The notes beneath the pieces are model-generated. The model was not told the DNA's origin. It saw nothing but the letters and a program-made list of their open reading frames with translations, and did not search any database. Source: a virus. From it: DNA of 64,000 nt. Positions within the stretch are counted from its first letter, which is position 1, and every line of letters begins with the position of its first letter. The stretch lies in the IMG/VR virus record IMGVR_UViG_3300027509_000001, positions 124,519-188,518 of that record; one strand, given 5' to 3'. This document shows, in pieces, positions 27,833 to 44,534 of this stretch. The position numbers and the translations under genes are program-made.

Positions 27833-27834
27833 GT

Positions 27835-28053: not shown

Positions 28054-28058
28054 AAATT

Positions 28059-28298
28059 TTATCCGTCGTAATCTGTAAATATTAATTTATTTCCTATAAC
28101 TTTAATATCTGATAATTTAGTATGGTAAATATCATCATCTACAGTAAAATAAACTTTGTTATTTTCCACGTAATCAACTTCGGAATGAAATTGTTGACTA
28201 CCACTTGTAACAGTGAATAATGCACCTGGTTTTAATTTTTTTAGAAGCGCATCGTTAGATGATTCATTTAAAGCTTCGTTCCATATTTTCTTGTTCAT
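28059..28298 (-). CDS. Small protein with MNKKIWNEA N-terminal tag
   Basis: 79 aa from ATG 28298, chosen because AAAGGAA lies 8 bp upstream and because three other genes here begin with the same motif; a longer frame from 28376 is less likely. The N-terminus MNKKIWNEALNES is followed by a beta-rich domain (ALFTVTSGSQQFHSEVDYVE). The shared leader contains an LxE, as in prohead-protease targeting peptides; the body may be a packaged internal protein. Confidence 0.6.
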   Translation of the reverse strand: MNKKIWNEALNESSNDALLKKLKPGALFTVTSGSQQFHSEVDYVENNKVYFTVDDDIYHTKLSDIKVIGNKLIFTDYDG

Positions 28299-28312
28299 AT
28301 TAGATTTCCTTT

Positions 28313-28789: not shown

Positions 28790-28793
28790 AATG

Positions 28794-28825
28794 CAAATAT
28801 AATAAATACAAATGACAATTACAAA
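28794..28825 (-). promoter_or_regulatory. Bacteroidota-type promoter
   Basis: Minus strand: TTTG (28825-28822), 20-bp spacer, TATATTTG (28801-28794). Drives the 2H phosphoesterase gene; the expected start point falls at or next to its ATG (28789). Confidence 0.7.
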
Positions 28826-28845
28826 AATAAATAACTTTATAAAGC

Positions 28846-28936
28846 AGAAGATAAGGGATTCGAACCCTTAGACCCATTTTTCAATAGATCGCTTGTTTAG
28901 CAAACAAGTGCCGCGCACCATCTCGACCGATCTTCT
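28846..28936 (-). tRNA. tRNA-Ser(GCT)
   Basis: Acceptor AGAAGAT/ATCTTCT, anticodon loop TTGCTAA (GCT), long class II variable arm, T-loop TTCGAAT. CCA not encoded. Its first two bases overlap the stop of the membrane-protein gene. Confidence 0.92.
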
Positions 28937-29360
28937 ATATAGTTATATCTTTATCAATTCTGCCTTGTAAATCTTTTTCTAATTCTAAAATAGATTGCAA
29001 TGCATGTGATTCCTTCATATACCTAACGAAGAAATGTGTTACAATAAATAAAATCCCAAGTATTAGCACTCTGATTTTATATGCCTGCACAAATAAAGCT
29101 AAAATGCCGTAACCATAACCAGCAATTGCACATAAGATGAACACGAAATTAAAATATAATAAATATTTCTTTGTAGGACTGTTATTATATTTTTTAGCAG
29201 TCTGATAGGTATGCCATGAAACTCTAGTATATTGAATAATCACACCAATTAATAATATGACCATTATAGCTATAAGAGAAAAATCTTCATTTGCACAATG
29301 GAAAAGTGTTTGGTAAGGTTCTCCATTAGAATCAGTATATAACCATTTAATTAAATTCAT
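28935..29360 (-). CDS. Membrane protein, 141 aa
   Basis: Three or four transmembrane helices (about residues 28-47, 66-90, 95-118) and a short charged C-terminus. Lies between tRNA genes, its stop touching tRNA-Ser. No family recognised. Confidence 0.6.
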   Translation of the reverse strand: MNLIKWLYTDSNGEPYQTLFHCANEDFSLIAIMVILLIGVIIQYTRVSWHTYQTAKKYNNSPTKKYLLYFNFVFILCAIAGYGYGILALFVQAYKIRVLILGILFIVTHFFVRYMKESHALQSILELEKDLQGRIDKDITI

Positions 29361-29401
29361 TAAAAATCTTTTTTAATATATAGCTTCTATACTTTAAAAG
29401 T

Positions 29402-29484
29402 ACTCCCGGCGAGACTCGAACTCGCACCCCCAATTACGGAGAACAGGGCTTAAACCTGTCGTGTCTGCATTCCACCACGGAAGT
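29402..29484 (-). tRNA. tRNA-Leu(TAA)
   Basis: Acceptor ACTTCCG/CGGGAGT, anticodon loop TTTAAGC (TAA), long variable arm, T-loop TTCGAGT. Confidence 0.92.
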
Positions 29485-29485
29485 A

Positions 29486-29650
29486 TTATTTCCATTTAGT
29501 TTTTCTAAATCTCTTCCAACTTCTAATTATCTCTTTAGCAGAATAATTGCATCCAGAATGTGGTCCACATAAAAGGCAACCACGCCTTTCGGATTTTCTT
29601 TTAAGCAACTTATAATTTCTAGAGTTAGTTGTTTTAAATGTCTCTTTCAT
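29486..29650 (-). CDS. Small Cys-containing basic protein, 54 aa
   Basis: ATG at 29650. Contains GCLLCGPHSGC (three Cys plus His), a possible zinc knuckle, in a very basic sequence (RRSWKRFRKTKWK-like tail). It ends one base before tRNA-Leu(TAA). Function unknown; nucleic-acid binding is possible. Confidence 0.55.
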   Translation of the reverse strand: MKETFKTTNSRNYKLLKRKSERRGCLLCGPHSGCNYSAKEIIRSWKRFRKTKWK

Positions 29651-29728
29651 AATACTTTATTTTTAAGTTAATAAACCTAATATAAAGTACCTGTTTTCAT
29701 TTTTATAAATTTTATTTTTTAAAAAAGA

Positions 29729-29798
29729 ACCGAATGTAAGATTCGAACTTACACCAAAGGTTTCGAAGACCCTTACGCTGCCATTACGCCAATTCGGT
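29729..29798 (-). tRNA. tRNA-Arg(TCG)
   Basis: Acceptor ACCGAAT/ATTCGGT, anticodon loop CTTCGAA (TCG, reads CGA), T-loop TTCGAAT. An ATT-initiated gene ends inside its D-arm. Confidence 0.9.
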
Positions 29799-30002
29799 AT
29801 CTATATTTGGACTAACTTCAACTCCAGCAGTAACTTGAGTAAATGAAACATTCTTTGTCCACCTTTCCCATTCATCATATGTAATTAAAATTTTAACCAA
29901 ATCTGTATCTTTTTTATCCAAAGGTAAAACAGTCCAAAATACATCTGGAGATTTAAGGTTAACTACATTTTCAACTTGGTCTTGGGCAATATATACTCTA
30001 AT
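29784..30002 (-). CDS. Hypothetical protein with apparent ATT start, 72 aa
   Basis: A frame with good coding character (IRVYIAQDQVENVVNLKSPD, later YDEWERWTKN and TQVTAGVEVSP) has no ATG, GTG or TTG at a plausible place; the likely start is ATT at 30002, with AAAAAG 6 bp upstream. The frame stops inside tRNA-Arg(TCG). It is either an ATT-initiated gene or a gene that lost both ends between two tRNAs. Confidence 0.5.
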   Translation of the reverse strand: MRVYIAQDQVENVVNLKSPDVFWTVLPLDKKDTDLVKILITYDEWERWTKNVSFTQVTAGVEVSPNIDTELA

Positions 30003-30029
30003 TAAAGACTTTTTAAATTCCTTTTTAGT

Positions 30030-30102
30030 ACCGCAGGTAGGGTTCGAACCTACAAATTTCAGGGTCTAAGCCTGTTGCCTATTCCAATTCGGCTACTGTG
30101 GC
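30030..30102 (-). tRNA. tRNA-Leu(TAG)
   Basis: Anticodon loop CTTAGAC gives TAG (reads CUA). Acceptor GCCACAG/CTGCGGT has one A/C mismatch. The D-arm is Leu-like, but the variable loop is only ~5 nt, unusual for a leucine tRNA. T-loop TTCGAAC. Confidence 0.75.
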
Positions 30103-30111
30103 AAATAAGAA

Positions 30112-30180
30112 GTCCCATGCAGAATCGAACTGCAACCTTCGGGATCAAAACCCGACGTACTAGCCGTTGTACCATGAGAC
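30112..30180 (-). tRNA. tRNA-Gln(TTG)
   Basis: Acceptor GTCTCAT/ATGGGAC, anticodon loop TTTTGAT (TTG), T-loop TTCGATT. Confidence 0.85.
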
Positions 30181-30182
30181 AA

Positions 30183-30231
30183 TGATGAGTGGCTGTTCCC
30201 ACCGCGTAACTAGAAAGTCGTGCCGCCACTC
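30183..30231 (-). other. 49-nt stem-loop between two tRNAs
   Basis: Perfect 9-bp outer stem (ATGAGTGGC with GCCACTCAT) around a 31-nt loop that contains ACTTTCTAGT. It is about the size of a tRNA spacer element but lacks T-loop and anticodon features. Could be a processing signal or a degenerate tRNA. Confidence 0.5.
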
Positions 30232-30251
30232 ATAGGCTTTATCTTTTAAGT

Positions 30252-30321
30252 TGATTTATTAGGACTCGAACCCAAACCCTGAGAGCCAACATCTCAGATG
30301 CTACCATTACACCATAAATCA
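30252..30321 (-). tRNA. tRNA-Gln(TTG), second copy, G at position 33
   Basis: Acceptor TGATTTA/TAAATCA with U1-A72, a Gln identity feature, and D-arm GTGTAATGGTAGCAT. The best 5-bp anticodon stem gives loop TGTTGGC, anticodon TTG but with G instead of the near-universal U33. Its 5' end overlaps the stop codon of the cupin gene. Confidence 0.65.
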
Positions 30322-30747
30322 ATTTGTTTTAGTGAAAGTTACATTTATTATTGTCATTTGATTACTAGCATTTGAAACTAAATGCGGAATATCAACTGGA
30401 TATACTACAGATTCACCGATAGTATATATGACATTATTAATATCATCGTACAGTTCACCTTGAATAATTGTTATCTTTTCGTCGCAATCAGGATGAACAT
30501 GTTTACCAAATTTCGTATGTGGATAAAGTATGGTAATAAAGTTAATAATATTTGGATCTGTCGTTGGAGTTTTCCAGCCAACTATTCCAGTATGAAAGGA
30601 CATTATATTATTATCGCTAACACCTAACAGATCTGAAAACTTTACCACGCTGATATCGTCAATATGAAATTCATTATTACTGAATTCATTAATTAATGCT
30701 TCTGCTTTTTCTTGTGCTTTTACTAATCTATTTTTCAATCTATCCAT
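30319..30747 (-). CDS. Cupin-domain protein
   Basis: 142 aa. The C-terminal half has cupin motifs: HVHPDCDEKITIIQGE (metal-binding His/Asp/Glu) and IGESVVYPVDIPHLVSN. Cupins bind small molecules or metals; the role is unknown. The TGA stop overlaps the first base of a tRNA-Gln. Confidence 0.7.
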   Translation of the reverse strand: MDRLKNRLVKAQEKAEALINEFSNNEFHIDDISVVKFSDLLGVSDNNIMSFHTGIVGWKTPTTDPNIINFITILYPHTKFGKHVHPDCDEKITIIQGELYDDINNVIYTIGESVVYPVDIPHLVSNASNQMTIINVTFTKTN

Positions 30748-30792
30748 TGATCTCTTTATTTAACAATAAATATACGATTGAATTAATAAAAG

Positions 30793-30881
30793 GGTGCTAA
30801 ACGGGAATTGAACCCGCAAATTAATTTCTTAATACCCGAGTCACAATCGGGCACGACTAACCAATATTCGTATCTAGCACC
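30793..30881 (-). tRNA. tRNA-His(GTG) with long variable arm
   Basis: Anticodon loop TTGTGAC (GTG). The extra G-1 pairs with C73, the histidine identity element, and acceptor GTGCTAG pairs with TTAGCAC. The variable region is 17 nt and forms ATTAA-GAAA-TTAAT, a perfect stem with a GAAA tetraloop; normal His tRNAs have 4-5 nt here. Confidence 0.85.
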
Positions 30882-30907
30882 ATGTAAACGCTGTTTCATC
30901 TTCTGCT

Positions 30908-31255
30908 TTAATAATCTCGTCCCGAAGTTTCTGTCTCAAATTGTCCTTGCTCTTTACCAGCGTGATTAGAACAATACAACTTTTTAGTTTTAGTATCTAC
31001 AAAAATTACATGCTTCCAAGAATTGTATAACGAATGCACTGATAAGGCAGTTCCTTTTCTCAATGTTTGAGTCTTGCCAAACACATCAATTGCCTTAAAA
31101 TCATTATCAACGTAATACATAGATTCACTTCTACCGTAAAATAATTTGTCAGCTTCTGATTGAGTTTTCACTGGCAATACATTTTTGGTATTATCATTTG
31201 GATACCTACTTTCTTTTAATTCATTAATTGCTTCATTCCAAATTTTCTTATTCAT
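30908..31255 (-). CDS. Small protein with MNKKIWNEA N-terminal tag
   Basis: 115 aa. Begins MNKKIWNEAINELKES, matching three other genes in this window; INE or LKE would fit a prohead-protease cleavage site. The body has a beta-rich pattern (ESMYYVDNDFKAIDVFGKTQ). Probably an internal head or packaged protein by analogy with T4 internal proteins; unproven. Confidence 0.6.
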   Translation of the reverse strand: MNKKIWNEAINELKESRYPNDNTKNVLPVKTQSEADKLFYGRSESMYYVDNDFKAIDVFGKTQTLRKGTALSVHSLYNSWKHVIFVDTKTKKLYCSNHAGKEQGQFETETSGRDY

Positions 31256-31277
31256 ATTCCCAATCCTAATTATTTGC

Positions 31278-31348
31278 GATCATGGAGAATTACGATATCC
31301 CGACCCGCGATTTAACAAACCGCCGCTCTGCCTCTGAGCTACATGATC
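31278..31348 (-). tRNA. tRNA-Asn(GTT), unusual T-loop
   Basis: Acceptor GATCATG/CATGATC (perfect), D-arm GCTCAGAGGCAGAGC, anticodon loop TTGTTAA (GTT). T-loop is ATCGTAA rather than TTCRANY: A54 and T58 in place of T54 and A58. Confidence 0.85.
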
Positions 31349-31362
31349 TTTTGAATTATTTT

Positions 31363-31590
31363 TTAAAATGATATTTTATTTTGTTTAACTAAGTTTGAAA
31401 TAGTACCATTGACGTGTATACTATTATCATTACTAGAAGCAGTAATATAATTGGTTTTTTTATCAAGTTTAGTAATTTTTCCTGACACATAAATGCCTCC
31501 ATGTTTATGAATTTTAACCAATTGTCCAACTTTTAAATTCTGTTCGGTTAACCTTTCCTGAATTACTTCGTTCCAAATTCTATTGTTCAT
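31363..31590 (-). CDS. Small protein with MNNRIWNEV N-terminal tag
   Basis: 75 aa. MNNRIWNEVIQERLTE is followed by a SH3/KOW-like body (KVGQLVKIHKHGGIYVSGKI). Same leader family as the genes at 28059, 30908 and 33695; IQE or LTE could be cut by a prohead protease. Confidence 0.6.
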   Translation of the reverse strand: MNNRIWNEVIQERLTEQNLKVGQLVKIHKHGGIYVSGKITKLDKKTNYITASSNDNSIHVNGTISNLVKQNKISF

Positions 31591-31686
31591 TTTAATTTCC
31601 GTTTCTTTTAAATTTCAATTATATTAATGTTAACGAGGTTGACCCTTACTGTTAAAAAACACATTCATATAATATAATCTATCATC

Positions 31687-31729
31687 TAATATTCACGACT
31701 TGTGGTAGTCGCAACCATAAAGAATATTA
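31687..31729 (-). other. 43-nt double stem-loop in tRNA spacer
   Basis: Outer TAATATTC/GAATATTA (8 bp) encloses an inner GCGACT/AGTCGT hairpin. The 160-bp gap between the tagged gene and tRNA-Phe otherwise has no gene I can support. Confidence 0.4.
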
Positions 31730-31748
31730 AATTGTCTTTAAATATTTT

Positions 31749-31822
31749 TGGTGGTACCTCGGGACTCGAACCCTGACCTTTCGGGCTTCAACCGAACGCT
31801 CTGCCAATTAAGCTAAGGCACC
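31749..31822 (-). tRNA. tRNA-Phe(GAA)
   Basis: Acceptor GGTGCCT/AGGTACC, anticodon loop TTGAAGC (GAA), T-loop TTCGAGT. It is the only tRNA here with a clearly encoded CCA (ends ACCA). Confidence 0.92.
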
Positions 31823-31824
31823 AT

Positions 31825-31938
31825 TTAATATGTCCATTTGTTATTTGTACGATATGATTTCTTTAAAGCATCTAATACTAATTGTATTTCATATAAGCAT
31901 TCATTTCTTCCACCACCAACTAATGTAAGGTTGTAAAT
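31825..31938 (-). CDS. Small conserved protein with apparent ATT start, 37 aa
   Basis: The frame reads LTLVGGGRNECLYEIQLVLD and ends YRTNNKWTY, which resembles a short phage family of the type M..(V/I)TLxGGGxNECLxEI. No ATG/GTG/TTG is in frame; a stop (TGA) directly precedes the ATT at 31938. It ends three bases from tRNA-Phe. Confidence 0.5.
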   Translation of the reverse strand: MYNLTLVGGGRNECLYEIQLVLDALKKSYRTNNKWTY

Positions 31939-32050
31939 TCACTCTGTATCGCTTCTTAAAAATCATCTGAAACTTTTGATTTAATTAAATCTCCCTCGCC
32001 CATTTGCCTAGAATCATTAATATCCAATTCATAGTTATTTGCTTTTTAGT

Positions 32051-32122
32051 GGTACCGATCGGTAACGATCCGATTACTTCCTGTTCTTCAAGCAGGCACT
32101 CTACCATTTGAGCTACGGTACC
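32051..32122 (-). tRNA. tRNA-Phe(GAA), second copy, unusual T-loop
   Basis: Acceptor GGTACCG/CGGTACC perfect, anticodon loop TTGAAGA (GAA) with a C/A mismatch at the stem end. T-stem ATCGG/CCGAT perfect, but the loop is ATCGTTA (A54, T58). Confidence 0.8.
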
Positions 32123-32128
32123 ATTTTG

Positions 32129-32200
32129 CACTTTCAATAGGACTCGAACCCATACCTGCGGGTTTGGAAGCCGCGGTGCTGCCAATTACACCATGAAAGC
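32129..32200 (-). tRNA. tRNA-Trp(CCA)
   Basis: Acceptor GCTTTCA/TGAAAGT, discriminator G73 (Trp identity), anticodon loop TTCCAAA (CCA). A Gly(TCC) reading would shift the loop by one and break the stem pairing. Confidence 0.75.
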
Positions 32201-32228
32201 ATTTTAAAAGTACGAAAAACAACGTCGT

Positions 32229-32301
32229 ACCCCCGGTTGGACTCGAACCAACTACCCCACCGTTAAAAGCGGCGTGCTCCATCCCGTCAAGCTGCGGAGG
32301 C
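32229..32301 (-). tRNA. tRNA-Lys(TTT)
   Basis: Acceptor GCCTCCG/CGGGGGT, anticodon loop CTTTTAA (TTT), T-loop TTCGAGT. Confidence 0.9.
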
Positions 32302-32313
32302 GTTTTATTTTAG

Positions 32314-32399
32314 CGGTCATAACGGGACTCGAACCCGCATACAATTTTTCAACTGATGCCACCGTGACAGGGTGGTCGCTTTCCATTCGCTTCATGACC
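32314..32399 (-). tRNA. tRNA-Asp(GTC) with long variable arm
   Basis: Acceptor GGTCATG/TATGACC, discriminator G, anticodon arm CCACC-CTGTCAC-GGTGG (GTC). The variable region is ~20 nt and forms CAGTT-GAAA-AATTG, the same GAAA-capped arm design as tRNA-His here; Asp tRNAs are normally class I. Confidence 0.85.
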
Positions 32400-32410
32400 T
32401 AAATTAAAAG

Positions 32411-32489
32411 TACTACTGGAGGGATTTGAACCCACATTTTCAACCCAGTTACCTTACTCCTGTGTATCAGACAGGGTGGATACAGTAGT
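32411..32489 (-). tRNA. tRNA-like, anticodon GAT (Ile), no normal D-arm
   Basis: Acceptor ACTACTG/CAGTAGT is perfect and the anticodon arm CCTGT-CTGATAC-ACAGG is textbook (GAT). Only ~8 nt lie between acceptor and anticodon arm, too short for a D-arm, while the variable region is ~22 nt. The T-loop is TTCAAAT. It may be a damaged or rearranged tRNA. Confidence 0.6.
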
Positions 32490-32503
32490 ATGTTAATATA
32501 TAG

Positions 32504-32592
32504 CGGAAGAAGAGGGATTCCAACCCCCACTACAAGACTAGTTGTAGGCTACGGTTTTCAAGACCGACACAATAGCGTTCTGTCATTCTTCC
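32504..32592 (-). tRNA. tRNA-Ser(TGA)
   Basis: Acceptor GGAAGAA/TTCTTCC, discriminator G, anticodon loop CTTGAAA (TGA), class II variable arm with CTACAA/TTGTAG. The T-loop is TTGGAAT (C56 changed to G). It interrupts the end of a GIY-YIG gene. Confidence 0.85.
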
Positions 32593-32821
32593 AAAAATTA
32601 AGTGACTCTTCCTTTAGTTCATCTCTAGAATTTTTAAATTCTAATATTTCACGAGTGTGATTTTCGTTGCCATACTTATTAAGTGAATATCTAAGTCTTC
32701 TACCTGAACCTAAATAACCATCGTCTAAATTATTAGTAGAATGCATTCCAATATAATACTTTCCATTTAAATTGTTCGTCGTTTTATATATGAAGTGATA
32801 TTTCTTTGCTTTTCTTGCCAT
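32558..32821 (-). pseudogene. Truncated GIY-YIG endonuclease
   Basis: 87 aa from ATG 32821. Contains YHFIYKTTNNLNGKYYIGMH (GIY-YIG core) and SGRRLRYSLNKYG, but the family's C-terminal helical and DNA-binding part is missing: the frame runs into tRNA-Ser and stops. A longer frame to 33064 reads through two tRNAs and is not the real start. Probably a decaying homing endonuclease in the tRNA array. Confidence 0.65.
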
Positions 32822-32891
32822 ATTAATAATATATAGTTTGAAAAGTACATAAAACAACGAAAGAAATAAAGGAATCGAACATTTCCAATTG

Positions 32892-32965
32892 TCGGGGTGA
32901 TTGGAATCGAACCAACTAACCCATGGCTCCAGACCACGTGCGCTTAAAACCTTAGTCACACCCCG
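32892..32965 (-). tRNA. tRNA-Pro(TGG)
   Basis: Acceptor CGGGGTG/CACCCCG, typical of Pro. Anticodon stem CGTGG/CCATG gives loop TCTGGAG (TGG), with C at position 33. T-loop TTCGATT. Confidence 0.85.
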
Positions 32966-32972
32966 ATTTTTG

Positions 32973-33045
32973 GCAACATGTCGGGATCGAACCGACTCTA
33001 TTCCTGGTTGGAAGCCAGGTGCACCACCATTTATGCGTATGTTGC
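32973..33045 (-). tRNA. tRNA-Gly(TCC)
   Basis: Acceptor GCAACAT/ATGTTGC perfect, anticodon arm CCTGG-CTTCCAA-CCAGG (TCC), T-loop TTCGATC. Confidence 0.9.
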
Positions 33046-33077
33046 AAAATACCCGCCTTGTCAAAGAGCTTTCATGT

Positions 33078-33141
33078 ATGAATTATAATACATTAAATAT
33101 TTTATTAAGCCGAAACTTGAAAATAATGTATTATAATTCAT
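33078..33141 (-). repeat. 17-bp inverted repeat between tRNA-Gly and tRNA-Ala
   Basis: 33078-33094 and 33125-33141 are perfect inverted copies (ATGAATTATAATACATT and its complement) with a 30-nt loop. No T-run follows, so a tRNA-processing hairpin is more likely than a terminator. Confidence 0.7.
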
Positions 33142-33150
33142 GCATTTTTG

Positions 33151-33223
33151 TGGAGCCACCGATGAACGATATCGGATCTGCTGGGTGCAAGCCAACTATT
33201 TTAGCCAATTAAACTATGGCCCC
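33151..33223 (-). tRNA. tRNA-Ala(TGC), unusual T-loop
   Basis: Acceptor GGGGCCA/TGGCTCC, anticodon arm GTTGG-CTTGCAC-CCAGC (TGC). T-stem CCGAT/ATCGG with loop ATCGTTC (A54, T58). Confidence 0.88.
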
Positions 33224-33226
33224 GTA

Positions 33227-33279
33227 AGTAAAATATTTAGGAAACTACTAATAACCAGTATTAATCTAAATATTTTACT
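33227..33279 (-). repeat. 13-bp inverted repeat between tRNA-Ala and tRNA-Tyr
   Basis: AGTAAAATATTTA (33227-33239) and its perfect complement at 33267-33279, loop 27 nt, no T-run. Same placement as the hairpin at 33078, directly between tRNAs. Confidence 0.65.
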
Positions 33280-33285
33280 AAATAG

Positions 33286-33369
33286 TGGAAATAGATGGAA
33301 TTGAACCAACTCAGCCGTTAGGCAGATGTTTTACAGACACCTCCGGCTCTCCAACTCCGGCGTATTTCC
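33286..33369 (-). tRNA. tRNA-Tyr(GTA)
   Basis: Acceptor GGAAATA/TATTTCC perfect, anticodon loop CTGTAAA (GTA), class II variable arm, T-loop TTCAATT. First tRNA transcribed in the array. Confidence 0.9.
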
Positions 33370-35550: not shown

Positions 35551-36030
35551 TTAAAAAATTGATTATCCGATAGGCATAATTCCTTCCCAAGCCAAATTGC
35601 CAATCAGTGTTAAAAAAATTATTCCTTTGACTAAAAAGCATATCAGAATCGTCATCTATAATTACATATGATCTGAATTTATGAGGTTCATAATTATTGT
35701 CTTTTAACCATTTATATATTTCAAGGCCTCTTGGTGTTTTAACGTTGGGAACGTAAATAGATTCGGTTTTTCCTATTACTTCTCCGGTAATGTTAACTCG
35801 CTTAAATAAATCTATTAATTCAGATATACTTCTAGTCTTTCTCCATGATGAACTTATAACAATTTTAGCCTCAGTCTTATCGGTAATTTTATTTAAATTA
35901 GTAACTAATTCTGGGTCGAATTGTGCTTCTTCATATTCTTCAACTGATTCCGATCTCATTCTTTCGACTTTATTGGACTTGTATTTAACACTCCATCTAT
36001 GTCTAGAAATATTAACTTGTTATTCTCCAT
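35540..36030 (-). pseudogene. HAD-superfamily phosphatase, split by a frameshift near 35960
   Basis: ATG at 36030 begins MENNKLIFLDIDGVLNTSP, carrying the HAD nucleophile motif (D10, D12), then stops after 24 codons. A second frame begins at an overlapping ATG and continues with KIVISSSWRKTRSISELIDL and YVIIDDDSD, the later HAD motifs. Adding one A to the run in TCGAAAGAATG gives S-K-R-M-R-S and a continuous protein of about 163 aa, like the HAD domain of RNA-repair proteins. Deletion in an A-run may be an assembly error, decay, or recoding. Starts inside the downstream-numbered RNA ligase end. Confidence 0.7.
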
Positions 36031-37099
36031 ATATAGATTTTTGAATTAAATCGAAAAACCCAATCCTAGCCTCAGAACCTATTCTAGATTTAACATCTTC
36101 CCAATCTAAAGATAATTCACTTAATAAACCAGATTCTTCATCAAATACATCTTTTTGTACCCATTGTATTACATCTCTAGTCTTTTCTTTACCAGGAACT
36201 ACATTCTCAAATAATTGATGAATAGCTTGATCTACTCGATTGATAATGTCTATAGAAGAAACGAACTGATTAATATTAGCCAACTTTACGGGACCTAGTT
36301 TGACATCTTTTTTAGGTCCTTTATTTTTAGATACCTTTTTATGCTTTTCTCCTTTGGTTTTAAAGCTAATTCGATTTCTTTCTCCTTTATAGTTGGTTAT
36401 AAAACAATTCCAAACAATTCCTTCTCCCAAACCAATAATGCCAAAATGTTCGGCGACGGGGCATTTATCTTCAACCTTTGCAATTATCTTATTAAAATAC
36501 TCCCTAGCCTCAATTGGATTGTTGAGATCACATTTAAATTTAAAAGTTTTAAATTGGTAAATATTCCATATTCTTTCATTATCAATTGAAATATATTTCC
36601 AGACTTCAGGATCTATCCAATATGCAGCCCCTTCTTCCGGGGTTACTTTTATTCCAAATATAAAAAACATTTTATGGGGCAATTGAGATATTGCCACTTT
36701 TTTCTGTACGCCATTTCCACACCATTCTCCATATATTGAATATGTTGCGTTTGCATCAAACATTTCATTGGATTCAACAGCCACTTCAAATAAAAACCGA
36801 GTCATTGCCTGCTTAGATTCGGGAATATTCATAAATGCATGAAATCCAAAATGACCTGTTATTGTACCCTCTTTTGAAGCAGTTGTTCTCTTCTGTGTCC
36901 AATATTCATCGCCTTTAAAGCAAACTGCCGCATGTGTACCATGAAGCTTGACAGTACCTTCTACGTCTAAAGTAGGTAATGGTGTCAATTCAAATATTGG
37001 GTTATTATCTTTATCTAAGCCCTTAAACTCTTTTTTCTGTTTAAAGTCCTTATAAAAATTATCAAATGATTTAATTTTTGGAAATGCTATAAATTTCAT
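36020..37099 (-). CDS. RNA ligase, Rnl2-like family
   Basis: 359 aa. Nucleotidyl motif I KLHGTH with the likely AMP-accepting K51, and SIYGEWCGNG with E125 around motif IIIa; later motifs include EGIVWNC and ISFKTKGEK (motif V lysines). It belongs to the RNA_ligase family of covalent nucleotidyltransferases that seal RNA nicks. It overlaps the HAD phosphatase gene by 11 bp. Together with the PNK and Rnl1 genes it makes an RNA-repair set. Confidence 0.8.
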   Translation of the reverse strand: MKFIAFPKIKSFDNFYKDFKQKKEFKGLDKDNNPIFELTPLPTLDVEGTVKLHGTHAAVCFKGDEYWTQKRTTASKEGTITGHFGFHAFMNIPESKQAMTRFLFEVAVESNEMFDANATYSIYGEWCGNGVQKKVAISQLPHKMFFIFGIKVTPEEGAAYWIDPEVWKYISIDNERIWNIYQFKTFKFKCDLNNPIEAREYFNKIIAKVEDKCPVAEHFGIIGLGEGIVWNCFITNYKGERNRISFKTKGEKHKKVSKNKGPKKDVKLGPVKLANINQFVSSIDIINRVDQAIHQLFENVVPGKEKTRDVIQWVQKDVFDEESGLLSELSLDWEDVKSRIGSEARIGFFDLIQKSIYGE

Positions 37100-37113
37100 A
37101 TGAAGTTGTTTTT

Positions 37114-37671
37114 TTATAATTTAATTAATTCATTTAATTTTCCCCACATATATGTTTCAAATGGATGTGGATTTTTAACAGTTAAATTATTCTTAAAACC
37201 TAAAAATTCCTTTTTGTATTTATTAAACATGGAACCTCCTTCCATACGAGAGTGGGCCATATTTGCATATCTGTCTATTAATTTTGCAATTCGACTTAAT
37301 GTGTTAGATTTAATTCTTTCATAATTTTTCCTTTCATCTCTATTCTTGCCAGGATCATCTGAAATACAAAATACGCCATCGGCTACAATTTCTCCAAAAA
37401 ATTTCCTAATGTCATTATAAGACATTCTACCATCTTCCAATGCATCATGTAAAATTATTACACATCTTAGTTCTTCTAGTCCCGCTCGTTCTTTTGGAAA
37501 AATATACTCAATTGTTTGTATTTCATCGAAAAAATAATCAACCATTTGTTCATATATTGCGTCGCAATCTTTCAGATGTTTGATATACGTAAATGGGCCA
37601 TAATACTGACCAACATGTTGTTTCTCAGCCATTAGCCAAGCCATTTCTACTTTATTTGTCAATTTTAGCAT
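37114..37671 (-). CDS. SpoT/MESH1-like HD phosphohydrolase
   Basis: 185 aa. H19 in KQHVGQYYGPFTYIKHL, the HD pair in IILHDALEDGRM (about residues 73-75), and KLIDRYANM with the distal Asp resemble the HD hydrolase domain of RelA/SpoT and MESH1. It would hydrolyse (p)ppGpp or a related alarmone. No synthetase domain. Overlaps the exonuclease gene by 20 bp. Confidence 0.7.
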   Translation of the reverse strand: MLKLTNKVEMAWLMAEKQHVGQYYGPFTYIKHLKDCDAIYEQMVDYFFDEIQTIEYIFPKERAGLEELRCVIILHDALEDGRMSYNDIRKFFGEIVADGVFCISDDPGKNRDERKNYERIKSNTLSRIAKLIDRYANMAHSRMEGGSMFNKYKKEFLGFKNNLTVKNPHPFETYMWGKLNELIKL

Positions 37672-38257
37672 CTTTAAGTTTTTTTAGACGTTTAACTTCA
37701 GCAGCAGATCTGAATAATAATTCGTTTAAATATTCTGCTTGATATCTACAATCATCAATAGCTATATGTTTAGTTCCTTTGAATTCAACTGTTGGCTCAC
37801 CTTTTAATTGTTTCAATGTTCTAATGTCGCTAGCTAAACGATAATGATATGGCATTTTATAACCAAGCTGATGAGTAATATTTCTTAAAATTGGGTCGTC
37901 AAATGATCCATGCTGCCATATGGCACGTATTTTATAATCTTTCCTAAGTTCAGTTAGCCACAATTCAAATTCAGTAATTACATCTGCTAAATTCTTACTG
38001 TTTTTTTGATTAAATGCATCATCTCTGGCTTCTTGAGCGCATTCTTTTGATAACCACCATAATATTGTTGAATATGTTGGTTTAAAATCATAACGTTGTA
38101 AATCTTTTACATTAATGTTCAGCGTAAAATCGTCTACAATTTGGAATTCTTTTTTTGCCAACCATGCAACCGCAGCAATTTGAACTGGAGGAGCTTGAGT
38201 GGTATTTCCTAAAGTCTCGAAATCAAATGTTACGTAAATATCTTTTTTCTTTTTCAT
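37652..38257 (-). CDS. DEDD-family 3'-5' exonuclease (DexA-like)
   Basis: 201 aa. DFETLG (D12, E14) is exonuclease motif I, WQHGSFDDPILRN about residues 114-126 is motif II-like, and HIAIDDCRYQAEY near 168-180 is motif III with H and D. This is the DEDDh RNase T/DexA group that trims single-stranded DNA or RNA 3' ends. Confidence 0.75.
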   Translation of the reverse strand: MKKKKDIYVTFDFETLGNTTQAPPVQIAAVAWLAKKEFQIVDDFTLNINVKDLQRYDFKPTYSTILWWLSKECAQEARDDAFNQKNSKNLADVITEFELWLTELRKDYKIRAIWQHGSFDDPILRNITHQLGYKMPYHYRLASDIRTLKQLKGEPTVEFKGTKHIAIDDCRYQAEYLNELLFRSAAEVKRLKKLKDAKIDK

Positions 38258-38259
38258 AT

Positions 38260-38994
38260 TTAACTTGTTTGTGCATCATGATGATCTGACATTAACAACC
38301 TTTCTTTTCTAAGCAACATCATCTTTTTTATTTCATCAACATGAAACATTGAATATTCACCAAATAATCTAAATTTATTATCGACACCCACATCAGTAGT
38401 TCGGTGTAAATTATAAAATTTGTTAACAGGATGCAATCCCCCTTCGTTAATATTTTCTAAACCATTATGACTGTGTCCATGTAATTGAATGGCGCCATGA
38501 TGACTTTTGTTCCAGATCCTTTCTGCATAATGAGATAACGTAGAACGAATTCCGCCAATTCTAAAAAACTGTTTTAAGGTAACTTCGGTAAATAAATCTT
38601 GCAAATAAATAGCATTTGGAAATCTAACATGTACATCTTCAATTAAGTCCAATGGAATTGGTCTATTTTTCATGATTAGTTCGTCATGATTTCCTAGGCT
38701 TAATATAATATTATTACAATTGATTCTTAATCTGGACTTTATGATATTTTCTATTCCGCCAAACGACCAGTCTCCGCCATGGCGTATTAAATCATTTTGT
38801 TTGGCTTGAGAATTAATATTTGCTATTAATTCGTCGGTCATAATATACTGATTTAAATAATCCCGGCCGCGAAATGATTTTCCGAGATCCCTTCGATCCT
38901 TTGGGTCATGTTCATGGCCTCCGGGCCATCTAGATGATCCTTTGCAAATATTTTTATGATAAAAATGTGTATCGCTTGTTACCCAAGTATTCAT
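38260..38994 (-). CDS. Calcineurin-like metallophosphoesterase
   Basis: 244 aa. SDTHF (D8, H10), GGDWSFG, LGNHDE and LHGHSHNG are the metal ligands of the family. Likely a phosphodiesterase or nucleotide phosphatase; substrate unknown. A consensus promoter lies 21 bp upstream. Confidence 0.8.
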   Translation of the reverse strand: MNTWVTSDTHFYHKNICKGSSRWPGGHEHDPKDRRDLGKSFRGRDYLNQYIMTDELIANINSQAKQNDLIRHGGDWSFGGIENIIKSRLRINCNNIILSLGNHDELIMKNRPIPLDLIEDVHVRFPNAIYLQDLFTEVTLKQFFRIGGIRSTLSHYAERIWNKSHHGAIQLHGHSHNGLENINEGGLHPVNKFYNLHRTTDVGVDNKFRLFGEYSMFHVDEIKKMMLLRKERLLMSDHHDAQTS

Positions 38995-39014
38995 TGCTTT
39001 AATTTTAATTAAAA

Positions 39015-39046
39015 CAAATATATAACTAAATTATCACAATATCAAA
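39015..39046 (-). promoter_or_regulatory. Bacteroidota-type promoter
   Basis: Minus strand: TTTG (39046-39043), 20-bp spacer, TATATTTG (39022-39015), just after the stop of the previous gene and 21 bp before the metallophosphoesterase start. Confidence 0.75.
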
Positions 39047-39048
39047 TA

Positions 39049-39564
39049 TTACACACTTAATTTCTGAATAGATTTATGATTTTTTAATGCGTCGTCAATA
39101 TATTGTGGTTCAATCTCAATAGATTTATTTCTTAACGACTCGACATATTCAGCGCCTTTTAATGTACATAAATTATATAATGTTCCAGCTGGAATTAAAT
39201 ATATGTGATTATGTTCGAACTCTTGTTGACTGGTTATATTCATTAAATCCCCACGTAATACGGTAATATATGTATCATAATCATTCATAGTTAATAAGTT
39301 ACTAGAATATTTCGATTCAATGGAAATTCTATGATATATAAGTTCTTCTTCTGATGGAAGATACATCCTTGTAACCGTTTTATTTCCTATTTTAAATGAT
39401 GAATTATAAGGTTGTAAATTAAAATCTCTAAATTTATTAACAATTACTTTGTCCCTAGAATTGGGATCAAGGTTATACATAGCTATTTCTGAGTCTGCCC
39501 AAGTTGCATATGTTTTAAAAAAATTGTGTTTAAGGTCTTTTAGTAATTGATCATTTAGTGTCAT
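39049..39564 (-). CDS. Cupin-like protein, 171 aa
   Basis: Segments YITVLRGDLMNITSQQEFEH then HIYLIPAGTLYNL read as cupin strands with possible metal-binding His residues. Function unknown. Overlaps the coiled-coil membrane gene by 14 bp. Confidence 0.45.
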   Translation of the reverse strand: MTLNDQLLKDLKHNFFKTYATWADSEIAMYNLDPNSRDKVIVNKFRDFNLQPYNSSFKIGNKTVTRMYLPSEEELIYHRISIESKYSSNLLTMNDYDTYITVLRGDLMNITSQQEFEHNHIYLIPAGTLYNLCTLKGAEYVESLRNKSIEIEPQYIDDALKNHKSIQKLSV

Positions 39565-39958
39565 TAGATGTGTCTTTAGATAACTGTGAATTAATAGTGC
39601 CTTCCAACGAATTAATTCGAACTTGTAATTCAGAATTCCTTGTCGTTAATATTAAATTCTTCTTATTAGATTCTTCTAATTTAATTGACAAATCTCCAAA
39701 TTTTTGAGAAAACTCTTTACGTTGAGATATTAGCTTTTCGCTAAGCTCTTCGAATGATTTATTTAACCTTTCAATAGTTTCTATGGAACTATGGCTAATA
39801 CGTTTAACCGTATCATGTTCTGTTCCTGTTACAACTACTTCTTCTTTTCTTTTTCTAAGTTTGTTAAAGGCAAATGTGGACATTCCTGTTACAATAGTAG
39901 TCACTAACGTTGTTACCAACGGGTAATTTTTCATTAACCATATTAGACTTTCCATCAT
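39551..39958 (-). CDS. Membrane-anchored coiled-coil protein, 135 aa
   Basis: One N-terminal transmembrane helix (about residues 14-31, LVTTLVTTIVTGMSTFAF) then a long coiled coil (residues ~55-125). The layout resembles i-spanins, but there is no matching o-spanin next to it. Confidence 0.5.
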   Translation of the reverse strand: MMESLIWLMKNYPLVTTLVTTIVTGMSTFAFNKLRKRKEEVVVTGTEHDTVKRISHSSIETIERLNKSFEELSEKLISQRKEFSQKFGDLSIKLEESNKKNLILTTRNSELQVRINSLEGTINSQLSKDTSNDTK

Positions 39959-40019
39959 TGAGAATTATTCCATTATCATGTTTATGTATATACATAGCTA
40001 CGTCGTCTAGAAACCAAAT

Positions 40020-41018
40020 TTAAAATGACCCATAATAAACCTGGAAACAATCCAGTCCCATATTCCTCCAATGATCAATCATCATGTCACGGTCATCAAG
40101 AACAAAGCCTACTCTATATTGGTCTTTAATATGCCTATCAAACATTTCCTGTTTTACAATTGTATCTTTCCTAGTGTCTCCAGGTTTCCTCATTGAAAGT
40201 AAGTGGTAATCAATGTGATTGTCACCGAGCCATTTCTTTGTAGCTTCCAAGCCCCCATTATCAGAGTTTCTTCCAGAAAATAAAAATATTTTATGATCTT
40301 GTAATTCACTATAGGCAGCTAAGACACTTGCTACAGATTCATTGACTTTATCAGTTCCACAAGCTGCTCCATCGTATGGACTTCTTCCATCCATTAAAGA
40401 TAATGTACCATCTAAGTCACATATTATGCACCATGGTAAATCCGACTTTCCTGTATTATACCTATTGTTTTTAATTGTTCGTGGATCAATATTATTATTT
40501 GGTTGGTTGTAAATCTTAGGATTCTCTGGCCACCATGATAATGAATTAAACCCCATGTATCTTCCAGACTTATATCCATTTTGTCTAAGTCCGTTTGGTA
40601 AATTTTTATACTCTGCAAATTGTTTTTCTATAAGTTCTTTGCCAACTGATCTGGTTCTTTGTTGATCTCTCTGTATACAAGTCTTCTTATCCGTGTCGAA
40701 TAATAATACTTTTATTGGAAGGTTATATACTTTCCATTTATTAATATGTGATGCCCTTAGATTAGTGTTGTCGACAATTACAGATTCGCCTGAATTTATA
40801 GCAGTAGACATAATCTTATCAAATATAACAGTAATCTCCTTCTCAGTTTGATATATGTTGCCAGTATAATATTTATGAACCGTTTCTTCTGTGTAACCAA
40901 AATACATACATCTAAGAGAATCCCTTGAAATAATTCTTGCAGTTGGTAATTTTGATATGTAAGTAGATTTACCAGAACCGCTTGGTCCGGACAAAACTAT
41001 TATTTCTTGTTGTTTCAT
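40020..41018 (-). CDS. pseT: Polynucleotide 5'-kinase / 3'-phosphatase (T4 PseT-like)
   Basis: 332 aa (T4 Pnk 301). The N-terminal kinase has P-loop GPSGSGKST (11-19), and the C-terminal phosphatase has the DLDGT nucleophile (D201, D203) with LDDRD late in the domain. It heals broken RNA ends to 5'-phosphate/3'-OH for sealing. The gene overlaps RNA ligase 1 by 4 bp (coupled translation), as a healing-and-sealing pair. In T4 this pair repairs tRNA cut by the PrrC anticodon nuclease. Confidence 0.93.
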   Translation of the reverse strand: MKQQEIIVLSGPSGSGKSTYISKLPTARIISRDSLRCMYFGYTEETVHKYYTGNIYQTEKEITVIFDKIMSTAINSGESVIVDNTNLRASHINKWKVYNLPIKVLLFDTDKKTCIQRDQQRTRSVGKELIEKQFAEYKNLPNGLRQNGYKSGRYMGFNSLSWWPENPKIYNQPNNNIDPRTIKNNRYNTGKSDLPWCIICDLDGTLSLMDGRSPYDGAACGTDKVNESVASVLAAYSELQDHKIFLFSGRNSDNGGLEATKKWLGDNHIDYHLLSMRKPGDTRKDTIVKQEMFDRHIKDQYRVGFVLDDRDMMIDHWRNMGLDCFQVYYGSF

Positions 41019-42160
41019 AATATATTTATTCTTTCTGGTTTAATATTTTTTATTGCAAGTTGCCTAATATCTTCTGGGACTTGAGCTCCTGCCCCTTTAA
41101 AGTCTCTTAGTTTATATAATACGCCTGCGCTGATATTTGCTTTTCCTGATAATAAAGAGTTAACTCTTAATGCATATTGTTTATTAAAATCAGACGCATT
41201 GGAATCTAAATTCCAAATAATTTCATCTCGATGTCTAATATGCTTCATTATAAAGTCTTTATATGACTTCTTTAAGATGTTTAGATAATCTGTTATTTTA
41301 TTATAGCATTCATCTGGAACCGCTTCTAGAAAATCATTAATAGTGTTGTCTTTATAACATTCCCAAATTTTACAAGAATTAATATCAGATAATAGCCAAT
41401 GCAATTTGATATAATTTTCAAATTTAATTTTAACACGTTTACCATCTGGCCAGCAAATTACATACCCTTCTTCATTTTGAATGTCTTTCGATTTTAAGTC
41501 TAAAAGAAATTCATTTAGGTCTTTGAATTCCTTGTCAACGAGCAATGGCAATGGCTTAACTACATGTTCAAATGAATCTGTTAACTTAGTTGATTTTAAG
41601 GCTATATCCCTACCTGTTTGATTATTGGTAATGCCAAGTAGTACTGCCTTAGATTCTCCTTTGTAATCTAATACTATCCGATTTTCCTTGAAAATTAATT
41701 CAAATAAATAAGTATAATTTGGAGTTCTAGGAATTTTATTAAAATTGAAATTATCATTTGCATATTCTTTAAACCAAATAGCTTGTTCTGATCTAAACGA
41801 TCCTCTAGATGCAAATACCCATTCGTTGTTATACATGAACATAATTCCTAGGCTACCATCTTCTTTGGTGTAAATGTCTAATTCATTGTGATGGACTTTC
41901 CAATTAATTGGTTGTACTTTCTGAATTAATGGATCAGTATATTCTTCCCAATTAAAAAATTTAGGAAATGATTTAGCAATAATATTACCACTGTCGTCTG
42001 TTACTAAACCTCTACAATTAATTGTAATGTCATCCCAAGATTTATCGTATGCAGTTAACCTACTATAATTCCATATAGTTAATGGTAAAGAATCGTGTCG
42101 GCTTGAAATTAATTTCTTATCGATTTCATATTGACGTAATAAATTTATATCTAGTTTCAT
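41015..42160 (-). CDS. rnlA: RNA ligase 1 (T4 Rnl1-like)
   Basis: 381 aa (T4 Rnl1 374). Motif I is YTKEDGSLG with the adenylated lysine K99; FELIFKENRIV fits motif IIIa, EGYVICWPDG motif IV, and KIKFENYIKL motif V. Seals RNA breaks, classically in tRNA anticodon loops. It directly precedes the kinase-phosphatase gene in transcription order. Confidence 0.92.
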   Translation of the reverse strand: MKLDINLLRQYEIDKKLISSRHDSLPLTIWNYSRLTAYDKSWDDITINCRGLVTDDSGNIIAKSFPKFFNWEEYTDPLIQKVQPINWKVHHNELDIYTKEDGSLGIMFMYNNEWVFASRGSFRSEQAIWFKEYANDNFNFNKIPRTPNYTYLFELIFKENRIVLDYKGESKAVLLGITNNQTGRDIALKSTKLTDSFEHVVKPLPLLVDKEFKDLNEFLLDLKSKDIQNEEGYVICWPDGKRVKIKFENYIKLHWLLSDINSCKIWECYKDNTINDFLEAVPDECYNKITDYLNILKKSYKDFIMKHIRHRDEIIWNLDSNASDFNKQYALRVNSLLSGKANISAGVLYKLRDFKGAGAQVPEDIRQLAIKNIKPERINIL

Positions 42161-42174
42161 ATTTTAATCAATTT

Positions 42175-42429
42175 TTAAAATATTTGATTGTTTATTGAAT
42201 TCTGCCACCACTCGTTAAATGGAATTATTTCGTAAGTAAATTCATCACTGCCAGCTGGTAAGGTTAATCCCTTATAAGTTATTTCCCATTGACCATCTTC
42301 CATATTTTCAATAATTAATTCTAAGAAATACGCCCACTCGTCAATATCGTTGGTTTCAATTGGTTGAGAATGATAATCATGATAAGTACATCCATCTCCG
42401 TCTCCCCAAAATAAAATATATTTTTTCAT
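42175..42429 (-). CDS. Hypothetical acidic protein, 84 aa
   Basis: Trp/Tyr/Asp-rich (FWGDGDGCTYHDYHSQPIET near the start). Its start overlaps the CCA-enzyme stop by 4 bp. Lies between two RNA-processing genes; no family recognised. Confidence 0.5.
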   Translation of the reverse strand: MKKYILFWGDGDGCTYHDYHSQPIETNDIDEWAYFLELIIENMEDGQWEITYKGLTLPAGSDEFTYEIIPFNEWWQNSINNQIF

Positions 42430-43172
42430 TTCTTTTTATCTGTTAACGTAATCCACAATCCAGTTTCATCAAAAATATAAGACATTAATGAAAATCCAAA
42501 ATCATTTTCCATCATAAACAACCATTTCATCGTTAATTTTGAATCAAATGCAAAACATTTATTAATTTCATCTCGAATTCGATCTTTTGAAACAACTTCA
42601 ATTCCAGTCAATCCAATCATTCGAATTGCATCTATCATTTCGCTGTCCATTGTAAATCCCTTTGTAATACAAAATCGAATAGCGCGAATAATACGCAATG
42701 GATCATCAGTAAAAGACTTTTTTGTTTCTCCCGGTGTTCGCAACAATTTTGAATTCAAATTATCCAATCCACCAAACATGTCAATTATTTTTCCATCTTC
42801 TCCTTTAGTCAAAGCATTAACAGTAAAATCTCGACGAAACAAATCGTCTTCCAAAGTTCCAATTTCTGTAATGGGAATTCGAGTTCCATCAATATATCCA
42901 ATTTCTTTTCGAGCGATAACGAAATCTGCGTCTCCACTATATGCATGATCGTCTGGAAATTTAGCTTTAACAGTCAAGCGATCTGGATATTTAATTCGTA
43001 TTTTAAATCCATCTATTTCCAATGCTGATACAAATGCATCAAATGCTTCTTTTTCTGGCAAGTTATTTTCTGGCAAAGTAACTGCATAATCTACGTCATT
43101 ACTTTTCAATCCCAACAATTCATCTCGAATCTTGCCACCTACTTCATACAAATTATATTTAATCTTTTTCAT
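42426..43172 (-). CDS. tRNA CCA-adding enzyme / poly(A) polymerase family
   Basis: 248 aa. The class II nucleotidyltransferase head is clear: VGGKIRDELLG (GG 12-13), catalytic D26 and D28 (NDVDYAV), RDFTVNAL, and DDPLRIIRAIRF. It is shorter than bacterial enzymes (about 400 aa), lacking most of the body and tail. All but one of the tRNAs here, and the tmRNA acceptor, lack an encoded CCA, which gives this enzyme an obvious job. Confidence 0.88.
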   Translation of the reverse strand: MKKIKYNLYEVGGKIRDELLGLKSNDVDYAVTLPENNLPEKEAFDAFVSALEIDGFKIRIKYPDRLTVKAKFPDDHAYSGDADFVIARKEIGYIDGTRIPITEIGTLEDDLFRRDFTVNALTKGEDGKIIDMFGGLDNLNSKLLRTPGETKKSFTDDPLRIIRAIRFCITKGFTMDSEMIDAIRMIGLTGIEVVSKDRIRDEINKCFAFDSKLTMKWLFMMENDFGFSLMSYIFDETGLWITLTDKKK

Positions 43173-43463: not shown

Positions 43464-43492
43464 AAAAAACTCACGTATTTCTACATGAGTTT
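43461..43492 (-). terminator. Terminator after tmRNA coding half
   Basis: 11-bp stem (AAACTCATGTA with TACGTGAGTTT) capped by GAAA, followed by at least six T. It closes the tmRNA transcription unit. Confidence 0.85.
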
Positions 43493-43498
43493 AAAAAT

Positions 43499-43645
43499 GG
43501 TAAGTGTGTCGTTACTTACCCAAACGTGCTATGCCGCCAGTCTAACTGATTGGTTAGCAAAAATTGAAAAGTTGTCAGTTATTTTAGACATTAACAATTC
43601 CTCTACATAAGTTACATCATCACCTGTCGATTCTAGTTTACCCCC
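43499..43645 (-). ncRNA. ssrA: Permuted tmRNA, coding (tag) half
   Basis: From 43645 the minus strand reads GGGGGTAAACTAGAATCGAC then AGG, matching the conserved tmRNA 5' end (GGGG...TCGAC). After a hairpin/pseudoknot-like region the tag ORF is GCT AAC CAA TCA GTT AGA CTG GCG GCA TAG (43558-43529), encoding ANQSVRLAA, a proper degradation-tag ending. It is followed by a 7-bp hairpin (43520-43499). The 5' strand GGGGGTA pairs with TACCTCC of the other half at 44445-44439. tmRNA rescues stalled ribosomes and tags their products. Confidence 0.85.
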
Positions 43646-44372
43646 AGTATCGATTGCCAATTTTAATAATCTGATCAGTATTATTATATACTAGATCAAC
43701 AATTTGTTGGCAATTTATAAATTTGTCTTCATCAATCCTTATTAAACGATAATTATTTTCTATGCACCATTCTTCCAGGCAACGATCTTTAAATTGCTTA
43801 GATTTTAATTGCATGTGAATATCTTTGAAATGCCATATACCATCGTATTCAAAACAAATTTTTAATTTATTAGAATACATATCTCTGGATAACCTCGTAC
43901 CTTTATAATTTAAAAGTCCTCCTGATGTCCAATTGTCGTTTGGAAAATTGTCCTTGAAATAACGAATGATTTTTCTTTCATTTTTACTAGTAAAATATTT
44001 CTTTGGAAAAATTCCGTGCTGCTTTTTCAATTGATCTCCAAACGAATTCTGTGGGTCTGCATAATATTTCTTTAAAATATTTTTATGCTTATCCGTTGGA
44101 ATTCTTGTATTTGCGCATGATCTAGAACAAAAATATTTCTTTTTCTTTTTGTTTGGTCTGTAAGATATTGAAACTATACTTGAACAACCTTTTGGGTTAT
44201 TGCAATGTACTTCTTCATGAAGATGCTTTCCCAATTCTCTATCATATCTTTCATATGCTCTTTTACTAATTAGTTGATTAGAATTCGAATTGTCTTTGTG
44301 CCGCCACCTTACATGATTTGCTTTTAATTGAAAAGTTTCAAAGGTACTTTCACACCTATCACATTTATACAT
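43638..44372 (-). CDS. Homing-endonuclease-like protein inside the tmRNA intervening segment
   Basis: 244 aa. N-terminal C2H2 finger (C4, C7, H20, H25) and a second Cys cluster (C58, C64, C83, C87), then a Vsr/EDxHD-like nuclease region with ICFEYDGIWHF (about residues 167-177) and YRLIRIDEDKF. The stop codon TAA lies within the GGGGGTAA that begins the tmRNA coding half, and the start is 65 nt after the acceptor half ends, so the gene occupies the whole spacer of the permuted tmRNA. Such nucleases usually move their own genes into conserved sites. Confidence 0.75.
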   Translation of the reverse strand: MYKCDRCESTFETFQLKANHVRWRHKDNSNSNQLISKRAYERYDRELGKHLHEEVHCNNPKGCSSIVSISYRPNKKKKKYFCSRSCANTRIPTDKHKNILKKYYADPQNSFGDQLKKQHGIFPKKYFTSKNERKIIRYFKDNFPNDNWTSGGLLNYKGTRLSRDMYSNKLKICFEYDGIWHFKDIHMQLKSKQFKDRCLEEWCIENNYRLIRIDEDKFINCQQIVDLVYNNTDQIIKIGNRYWG

Positions 44373-44436
44373 ACTTATAAATAGTATGGAGTTACCAATA
44401 ATCGCAGTTAATAAACATTAATGTCAAACAACTTTT

Positions 44437-44534
44437 GTGGAGGTAGGCGGCTCTGCCCCGCCGTCCAGCGTAATTTCAATCGTATGTGTCAACGAAATTA
44501 TATTTCTTTAAAAGGCTTCTTTTTAAGCCTAAGT
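44437..44534 (-). ncRNA. ssrA: Permuted tmRNA, acceptor half
   Basis: The minus strand contains GGAC, then a T-arm GGCGG-GGCAGAG-CCGCC (44462-44446), then TACCTCC, discriminator A (44438) and C. The order and spacing match the tmRNA 3' end (GGAC, T-arm, acceptor strand). The 7-nt acceptor strand pairs with the other half. The T-loop is GGCAGAG rather than TTCRANY, and CCA is not encoded. A stem AGGCTT/AAGCCT lies near 44510-44530. The 5' boundary is a guess. Confidence 0.75.

Follow-up and report, generated by a model that had tools for sequence, protein, structure and literature searches.

Mobile DNA favours tmRNA genes, which encode a conserved ribosome-rescue RNA, as landing sites. The locus described here raises the question of whether a tmRNA gene split around a nuclease gene is genuine and how the nuclease gene came to lie there. 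It belongs to a viral stretch of 64,000 nucleotides (64 kb), the whole of which we call the window. A preliminary description had proposed a circularly permuted two-piece tmRNA with seven-position acceptor pairing including one G-U, a tag ANQSVRLAA followed by a hairpin and a terminator, and a nuclease gene in the spacer whose stop codon overlaps the coding half. All these elements are present in the minus-strand sequence:

44471..44500, minus strand: hairpin 5' of the acceptor half, TAATTTCGT..ACGATTGAAATTA, seen by cofolding and taken to be part of the acceptor piece
44438..44466, minus strand: tmRNA acceptor half, with GGAC (44466-44463), T-stem GGCGG/CCGCC, T-loop GGCAGAG, acceptor strand TACCTCC and discriminator A (44438)
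43646..44437, minus strand: spacer (intervening sequence) of 792 nt, containing the nuclease gene
43638..44372, minus strand: nuclease gene, 244 aa, with a zinc-cysteine N-terminal domain and a predicted Vsr-like catalytic domain
43638..43645, minus strand: overlap of the nuclease 3' end (GG GGG TAA) with the acceptor strand GGGGGTA
43529..43645, minus strand: tmRNA coding half, opening with GGGGGTA (43645-43639), then AAC, D-loop TAG and AATCGACAGG, with AACTAGAATCGACAGG ahead of the tag, and ending with the tag stop codon
43529..43558, minus strand: tag reading frame ANQSVRLAA*, GCT..GCA TAG
43499..43520, minus strand: hairpin GGTAAGTaacgacacACTTACC
43467..43492, minus strand: intrinsic terminator, stem-loop and T run

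On the minus strand the acceptor half is followed by the 244-aa ORF, the coding half, the hairpin and the terminator; an acceptor half placed before its coding half on one strand is the order of permuted tmRNA (RF04321). The acceptor strands pair at 7/7 positions, the one G-U being the alanine G3-U70, and the T-stem at 5/5, i.e. the 7-bp acceptor stem and 5-bp T-arm of the RF04321 type, which covary in relatives. The D-loop and TCGAC motif of that type are found with a proper T-loop partner (TAG..AATCGAC with GGCAGAG). By reading, the tag ends in a degradation-type signal. The nuclease frame (44372-43638) ends TAC TGG GGG TAA, its last codons overlapping the tmRNA acceptor strand. CCA is not encoded after the acceptor half, where ACAAAA stands instead.

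The two halves were scored with profiles made from a GGCAG-loop set of phage tmRNAs, pattern-collected from IMG/VR, with 12 shuffled windows as control. The acceptor half reaches 50.9 bits; no other place on either strand of the 64 kb exceeds -6.1, and no shuffle exceeds -0.6. The coding half reaches 31.8 bits, with 11.9 for the runner-up on either strand and 12.1 for the best shuffle. The search pattern for acceptor halves had been shaped after the window itself and one relative (L009), so this test draws its weight from the coding half, which is independent, and from the matching coding half found for 108 of the 119 acceptor-pattern matches. A descriptor requiring full pairing gives one genuine two-half match in the window, the second listed match being two tRNA genes. 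Cofolding of both RNA pieces recovers the acceptor stem and T-arm without constraint; the P2 helix joining the pieces is not fixed by it.

The preliminary description had named a tmRNA covariance model and a covarying acceptor stem in relatives as checks. The first gave no match in the window: neither Rfam nor ARAGORN calls a tmRNA there, and RF04321 stays silent at a cut-off as loose as E 10. That model was not designed for a spacer of 792 nt, and this length is the likely cause of the miss, since shorter-spacer relatives that share the T-loop reach 52-94 bits with it. The second check is strongly positive: in 27 diverse tRNA domains, a set pre-filtered for partial pairing, pairing is 100%, with 71 double changes vs 17 in shuffles. 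The covariance-model miss is thus not decisive. These results confirm that a permuted tmRNA gene is present on the minus strand and, judging from its sequence, the two-piece tmRNA is probably functional.

The T-loop GGCAGAG had been called atypical. It is instead of a known alphaproteobacterial type, coupled to a change in the D-loop: the Rfam alpha_tmRNA (RF01849) consensus has the T-loop GGCgGUA and the D-loop uAGGAUCGACG. Since the same kind of T-loop and D-loop occurs there, the loop of the window is not degenerate but an alphaproteobacterial elbow, and an origin of the GGCAG loop as decay, nuclease escape or an undescribed tmRNA class was dropped. In a sample of 141 phage tmRNAs whose T-loop and D-loop position 18 were left free, G at 55 goes with A at 18 in 116/116 and T at 55 with G at 18 in 20/20 (seven-nt loops), while positions 54/58 are T/A or G/G only. 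The window follows the coupling with G55/A18 (GGC/TAG) and has G54/G58. In themselves, the 55/18 coupling and the 54/58 restriction let the tmRNA elbow be tested cleanly by natural covariation. Pelagibacter phage HTVC008M (KC465899.1, ~145182-145470; L260:1500-1790) carries a permuted tmRNA, unannotated in its GenBank record, with T-loop TGCAATA and D-loop TAG. L176, L193 and L263:3739-3849 (minus strand) are short tmRNA-like genes of ~75-110 nt with no room for a tag frame; they keep the acceptor stem, D-loop and T-arm and resemble the CDS-less tmRNA of phage DS6A.

The window is the sole case found with a nuclease gene inside a tmRNA spacer, and its spacer is ~2.8x the next longest found (281 nt). 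An empty counterpart, L174, reads TACCTCC-A-CTACAT-GGGGGTA, with a spacer of a few nt. Other permuted phage tmRNAs (L144, L141, L140 and similar loci) have spacers of ~110-280 nt. Apparent 745-nt spacers in L093 and L036 proved spurious, through chance and tandem duplication; L036 has the same permuted acceptor/coding region twice, at 5635 and 6375, ~740 nt apart on one contig. An INPHARED DNA search for the locus returned nothing useful, the exact T-arm pattern had no match in IMG/VR, and neither ARAGORN nor the pairing descriptor finds a tmRNA in Microcystis phage Mel-JY01, which is distantly related (47% in the baseplate protein).

The preliminary description had read the ORF as a Vsr/EDxHD-like nuclease. 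In agreement with it, the AlphaFold model (pLDDT 84.7) has Vsr 1cw0 as its top PDB match in Foldseek (probability 1.00, E 3.5e-3, TM-score to target 0.51), which supports a Vsr-like fold. The candidate catalytic residues E132, D164, E175, D177 and H181 are invariant in 16 homologues, and the family conserves N19, R22, C57, C63, C82, C86, S129, E132, D164, E175-YDG, W180 and H181. PHROG gives a weak 'HNH endonuclease' match (E 1.1e-7), and for the L003 homologue additionally 'homing endonuclease'. Pfam has no match to the nuclease above cut-off and solved structures no sequence match; a second copy of the nuclease was looked for and not found.

Homologues were drawn from IMG/VR, a 735-kb phage genome and MAG contigs. 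A tmRNA is directly adjacent in 23 of ~29 distinct homologue loci by Rfam or ARAGORN, a count in which the window enters through its profile scores and L003, L005, L009 and L011, below the Rfam cut-off, were checked by eye. The nuclease lies 3' of a one-piece tmRNA (e.g. L006, L008, L016, L017, L272, L290), 5' of a one-piece tmRNA (L275, L277), 5' of a permuted tmRNA (L002, L013, L261, L264, L268), or beside a tmRNA with a T-loop group I intron (L003, L266, and by eye, outside the 23, L273 and L291). It is not tied to the GGCAG T-loop, most of its loci having canonical loops. By these sequence comparisons the nuclease is a member of a tmRNA-associated family and not an isolated oddity. The T-loop introns at L003:3640-3871 and L266:2743-2955 directly adjoin the nuclease gene, pointing to collaborative homing between the intron and the free-standing enzyme. 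In the variants L010 and L012 the N-terminal domain is shared, the catalytic domain is different and the gene comes after tRNA-Ala; at L010:3974-4771 and L012:3989-4810 the C-terminal domain looks HNH-like, and the gene, directly 3' of tRNA-Ala, has the same upstream box.

This box precedes the nuclease gene in the window as well:

44387..44407, minus strand: box CTGCGATT-attggtaa-CTCCA, putative operator, mimicking the tmRNA T-loop (53-60) and acceptor end (69-73)
44373..44380, minus strand: TTATAAGT, late-promoter-like by eye, between box and start codon

Its consensus, GTTCRANT-N8-CTCCA, stands ~20-60 nt before the nuclease start at native tmRNA spacing, U70 included. At spacing 8 the box scores at least 10/12 in 16/24 loci vs 0-6 at the other 20 spacings, and at least 11/12 in 11/22 loci (two whose match is a real T-arm being omitted) vs 0/413 upstreams of other genes; these counts use a consensus derived from the very loci that were scored, with spacing and half-motifs taken from tmRNA and thresholds of our choice, and the relatives are not fully independent. 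In the window the box has TGCGATT, a common phage T-loop, and the resident tmRNA has GGCAGAG. In I-TevI the operator is similar to the site at which the enzyme homes and coincides in part with a late promoter (PMC2988022), and by analogy we infer that the box is an operator for self-repression of the nuclease. The box could also descend from an earlier tmRNA whose 3' end was displaced when a nuclease-carrying element replaced the 3' part of the gene in the manner of an integrative island. That would account for T-loop and acceptor-end bases at native spacing, and many islands do use tmRNA 3' ends (PMC11915505). But this seems unlikely because the box precedes the nuclease start even when the tmRNA lies downstream of the nuclease (L002, L261, L268), is on the opposite strand in L267 and L291, and has usually lost the T-stem complement while keeping both half-motifs; a protein-binding site fits this better than a displaced gene end.

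The explanation that we consider probable is that a homing-endonuclease gene invaded the spacer of a permuted phage tmRNA with an alphaproteobacterial elbow, and that its product targets tmRNA genes. The nuclease would recognise the T-loop (53-60) and acceptor end (69-73) of tmRNA genes and cut those of co-infecting phages, its own gene spreading with the tmRNA region by repair into alleles without it. The copy of the site before the gene would act as an operator, giving self-repression as in I-TevI. The resident tmRNA may escape cutting, since its GGCAGAG differs from the box TGCGATT; in the relatives L006, L016 and L017 the resident T-loop is canonical and near the presumed target, so immunity must differ there and self-immunity is not explained by the T-loop. 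RNase P and 3'-end trimming would free both tmRNA pieces from a long precursor, with CCA added by the phage's own enzyme, whose gene lies just downstream; the nuclease would be translated from the unprocessed transcript or through its own promoter within the spacer. Being discarded in maturation, a permuted spacer may be a harmless place for insertion.

The downstream region holds the following genes:

42426..43172, minus strand: CCA-adding enzyme (tRNA nucleotidyltransferase), phrog_24229, E 6.7e-82
41015-42160 and 36020-37099: two RNA ligases
40020-41018: polynucleotide kinase-phosphatase

The CCA-adding enzyme could supply the CCA missing from the acceptor half; a search with it for close relatives in IMG/VR found none. 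Together, 36020-43172 forms an RNA-repair neighbourhood that includes this enzyme. About 20 tRNA genes are arrayed at 27570-33369, two of them (31277-31348 and 32892-32965) found by Rfam and missed by ARAGORN. SmpB was looked for on the contig and not found. A Bacteroidota host is plausible.

If the nuclease insertion had split and killed the tmRNA, leaving a relic beside a nuclease gene that alone is functional, the length of the spacer, the silence of Rfam and ARAGORN at the locus, the missing CCA and the single instance would all be expected. We regard this as quite unlikely given what has been retained: the acceptor stem (7/7) and T-stem (5/5) still pair, G3-U70 and the matching A18/G55 are in place, the tag ORF is unbroken up to its final LAA, and the terminator is present. 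Permuted genes, moreover, already tolerate a spacer that is processed out.

Invasion of a working permuted gene leaves one peculiarity to consider. Since the nuclease frame runs across the RNase P site, its message would lose the stop codon on processing. In a regulatory form of nesting, a cut before 43645 would yield a non-stop nuclease mRNA as a substrate for trans-translation, next to cutting of T-loop/acceptor sites in rival tmRNA genes and self-repression through the T-loop-mimic operator. This idea is speculative and we give it little credence; if it holds, the mobile element would limit itself by exploiting the function of its host RNA.

It is very improbable that the nuclease acts on the tmRNA transcript, or aids its maturation, instead of cutting DNA. 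Its physical linkage to tmRNA, and to tRNA-Ala for L010 and L012, would suit such a role, but the Vsr-like fold and the PHROG homing and HNH endonuclease matches indicate DNA cleavage, L010 and L012 swap the catalytic domain for another nuclease type with the N-terminal domain unchanged, and the nuclease is absent beside most phage tmRNAs. Chance tmRNA-like flanks of an ordinary nuclease gene, or an assembly join, might be imagined for a metagenomic contig on which standard tools are silent, but this is refuted in practice by profile scores far beyond the shuffles and by the covariation, the halves moreover sharing the less common TACCTCC/GGGGGTA stem and obeying the 18/55 coupling, and 22 other loci having a homologous nuclease beside a tmRNA.

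Insertion of a homing-endonuclease gene into the tmRNA spacer remains the reading that we prefer. Taken together, the tmRNA-linked nuclease family and the copy of the 3' end would define a precise target, T-loop 53-60 plus acceptor 69-73. Such a family would help to explain the clustering of T-loop introns and unusual layouts at phage tmRNA genes. The locus also indicates that permuted genes can carry a protein gene in the portion discarded during RNA maturation, and that such genes are missed by current annotation tools.

As to known systems, the preliminary description had held phage-encoded tmRNAs to be rare. This has to be abandoned: two-piece tmRNAs are common in phages, with 53/133 unique phage tmRNAs, that of Methylophilales phage Melnitz for example (PMC9004378), and dozens in IMG/VR. 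With permuted tmRNA (RF04321) the window shares the acceptor-spacer-coding order, the G3-U70 stem, the TCGAC motif and a tag ending AA, and with alpha_tmRNA (RF01849) a GGC-type T-loop and the D-loop AG. Unlike known permuted tmRNAs, its spacer is 792 nt long and filled by a protein gene; of the unusual permuted spacers on record, one contains a repetitive element (1152-bp gene) and another a tRNA-Ala (PMC11915505). The tmRNA T-loop is also known to harbour group I introns, of which some carry LAGLIDADG homing endonucleases (PMC11915505). Like these introns, the nuclease of the window would be a mobile element aimed at the tmRNA T-loop, but it has no intron and is free-standing, Vsr-like by prediction and placed within the spacer. 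It resembles I-TevI in what appears from sequence to be a homing-site-like operator before its own gene, and differs from it in a predicted fold that is Vsr-like and not GIY-YIG and in its presumed target, the tmRNA gene. SegB, a free-standing homing endonuclease of T4, targets a tRNA gene region. As in I-Bth0305I (EDxHD) and Vsr (PMC3943268; PDB 1cw0), a Vsr-like catalytic domain seems to be coupled to a DNA-binding region; unlike them, the window nuclease has its own N-terminal cysteine/zinc domain. In the open literature that our search covered, we found neither a protein gene in a permuted tmRNA spacer nor a free-standing nuclease family tied to tmRNA genes. Already known, then, are permuted tmRNA, phage two-piece tmRNA, T-loop introns with LAGLIDADG, tRNA and repeat spacers and the alpha-type elbow; what appears to be new is a previously unnoticed family of nucleases adjoining tmRNA genes.
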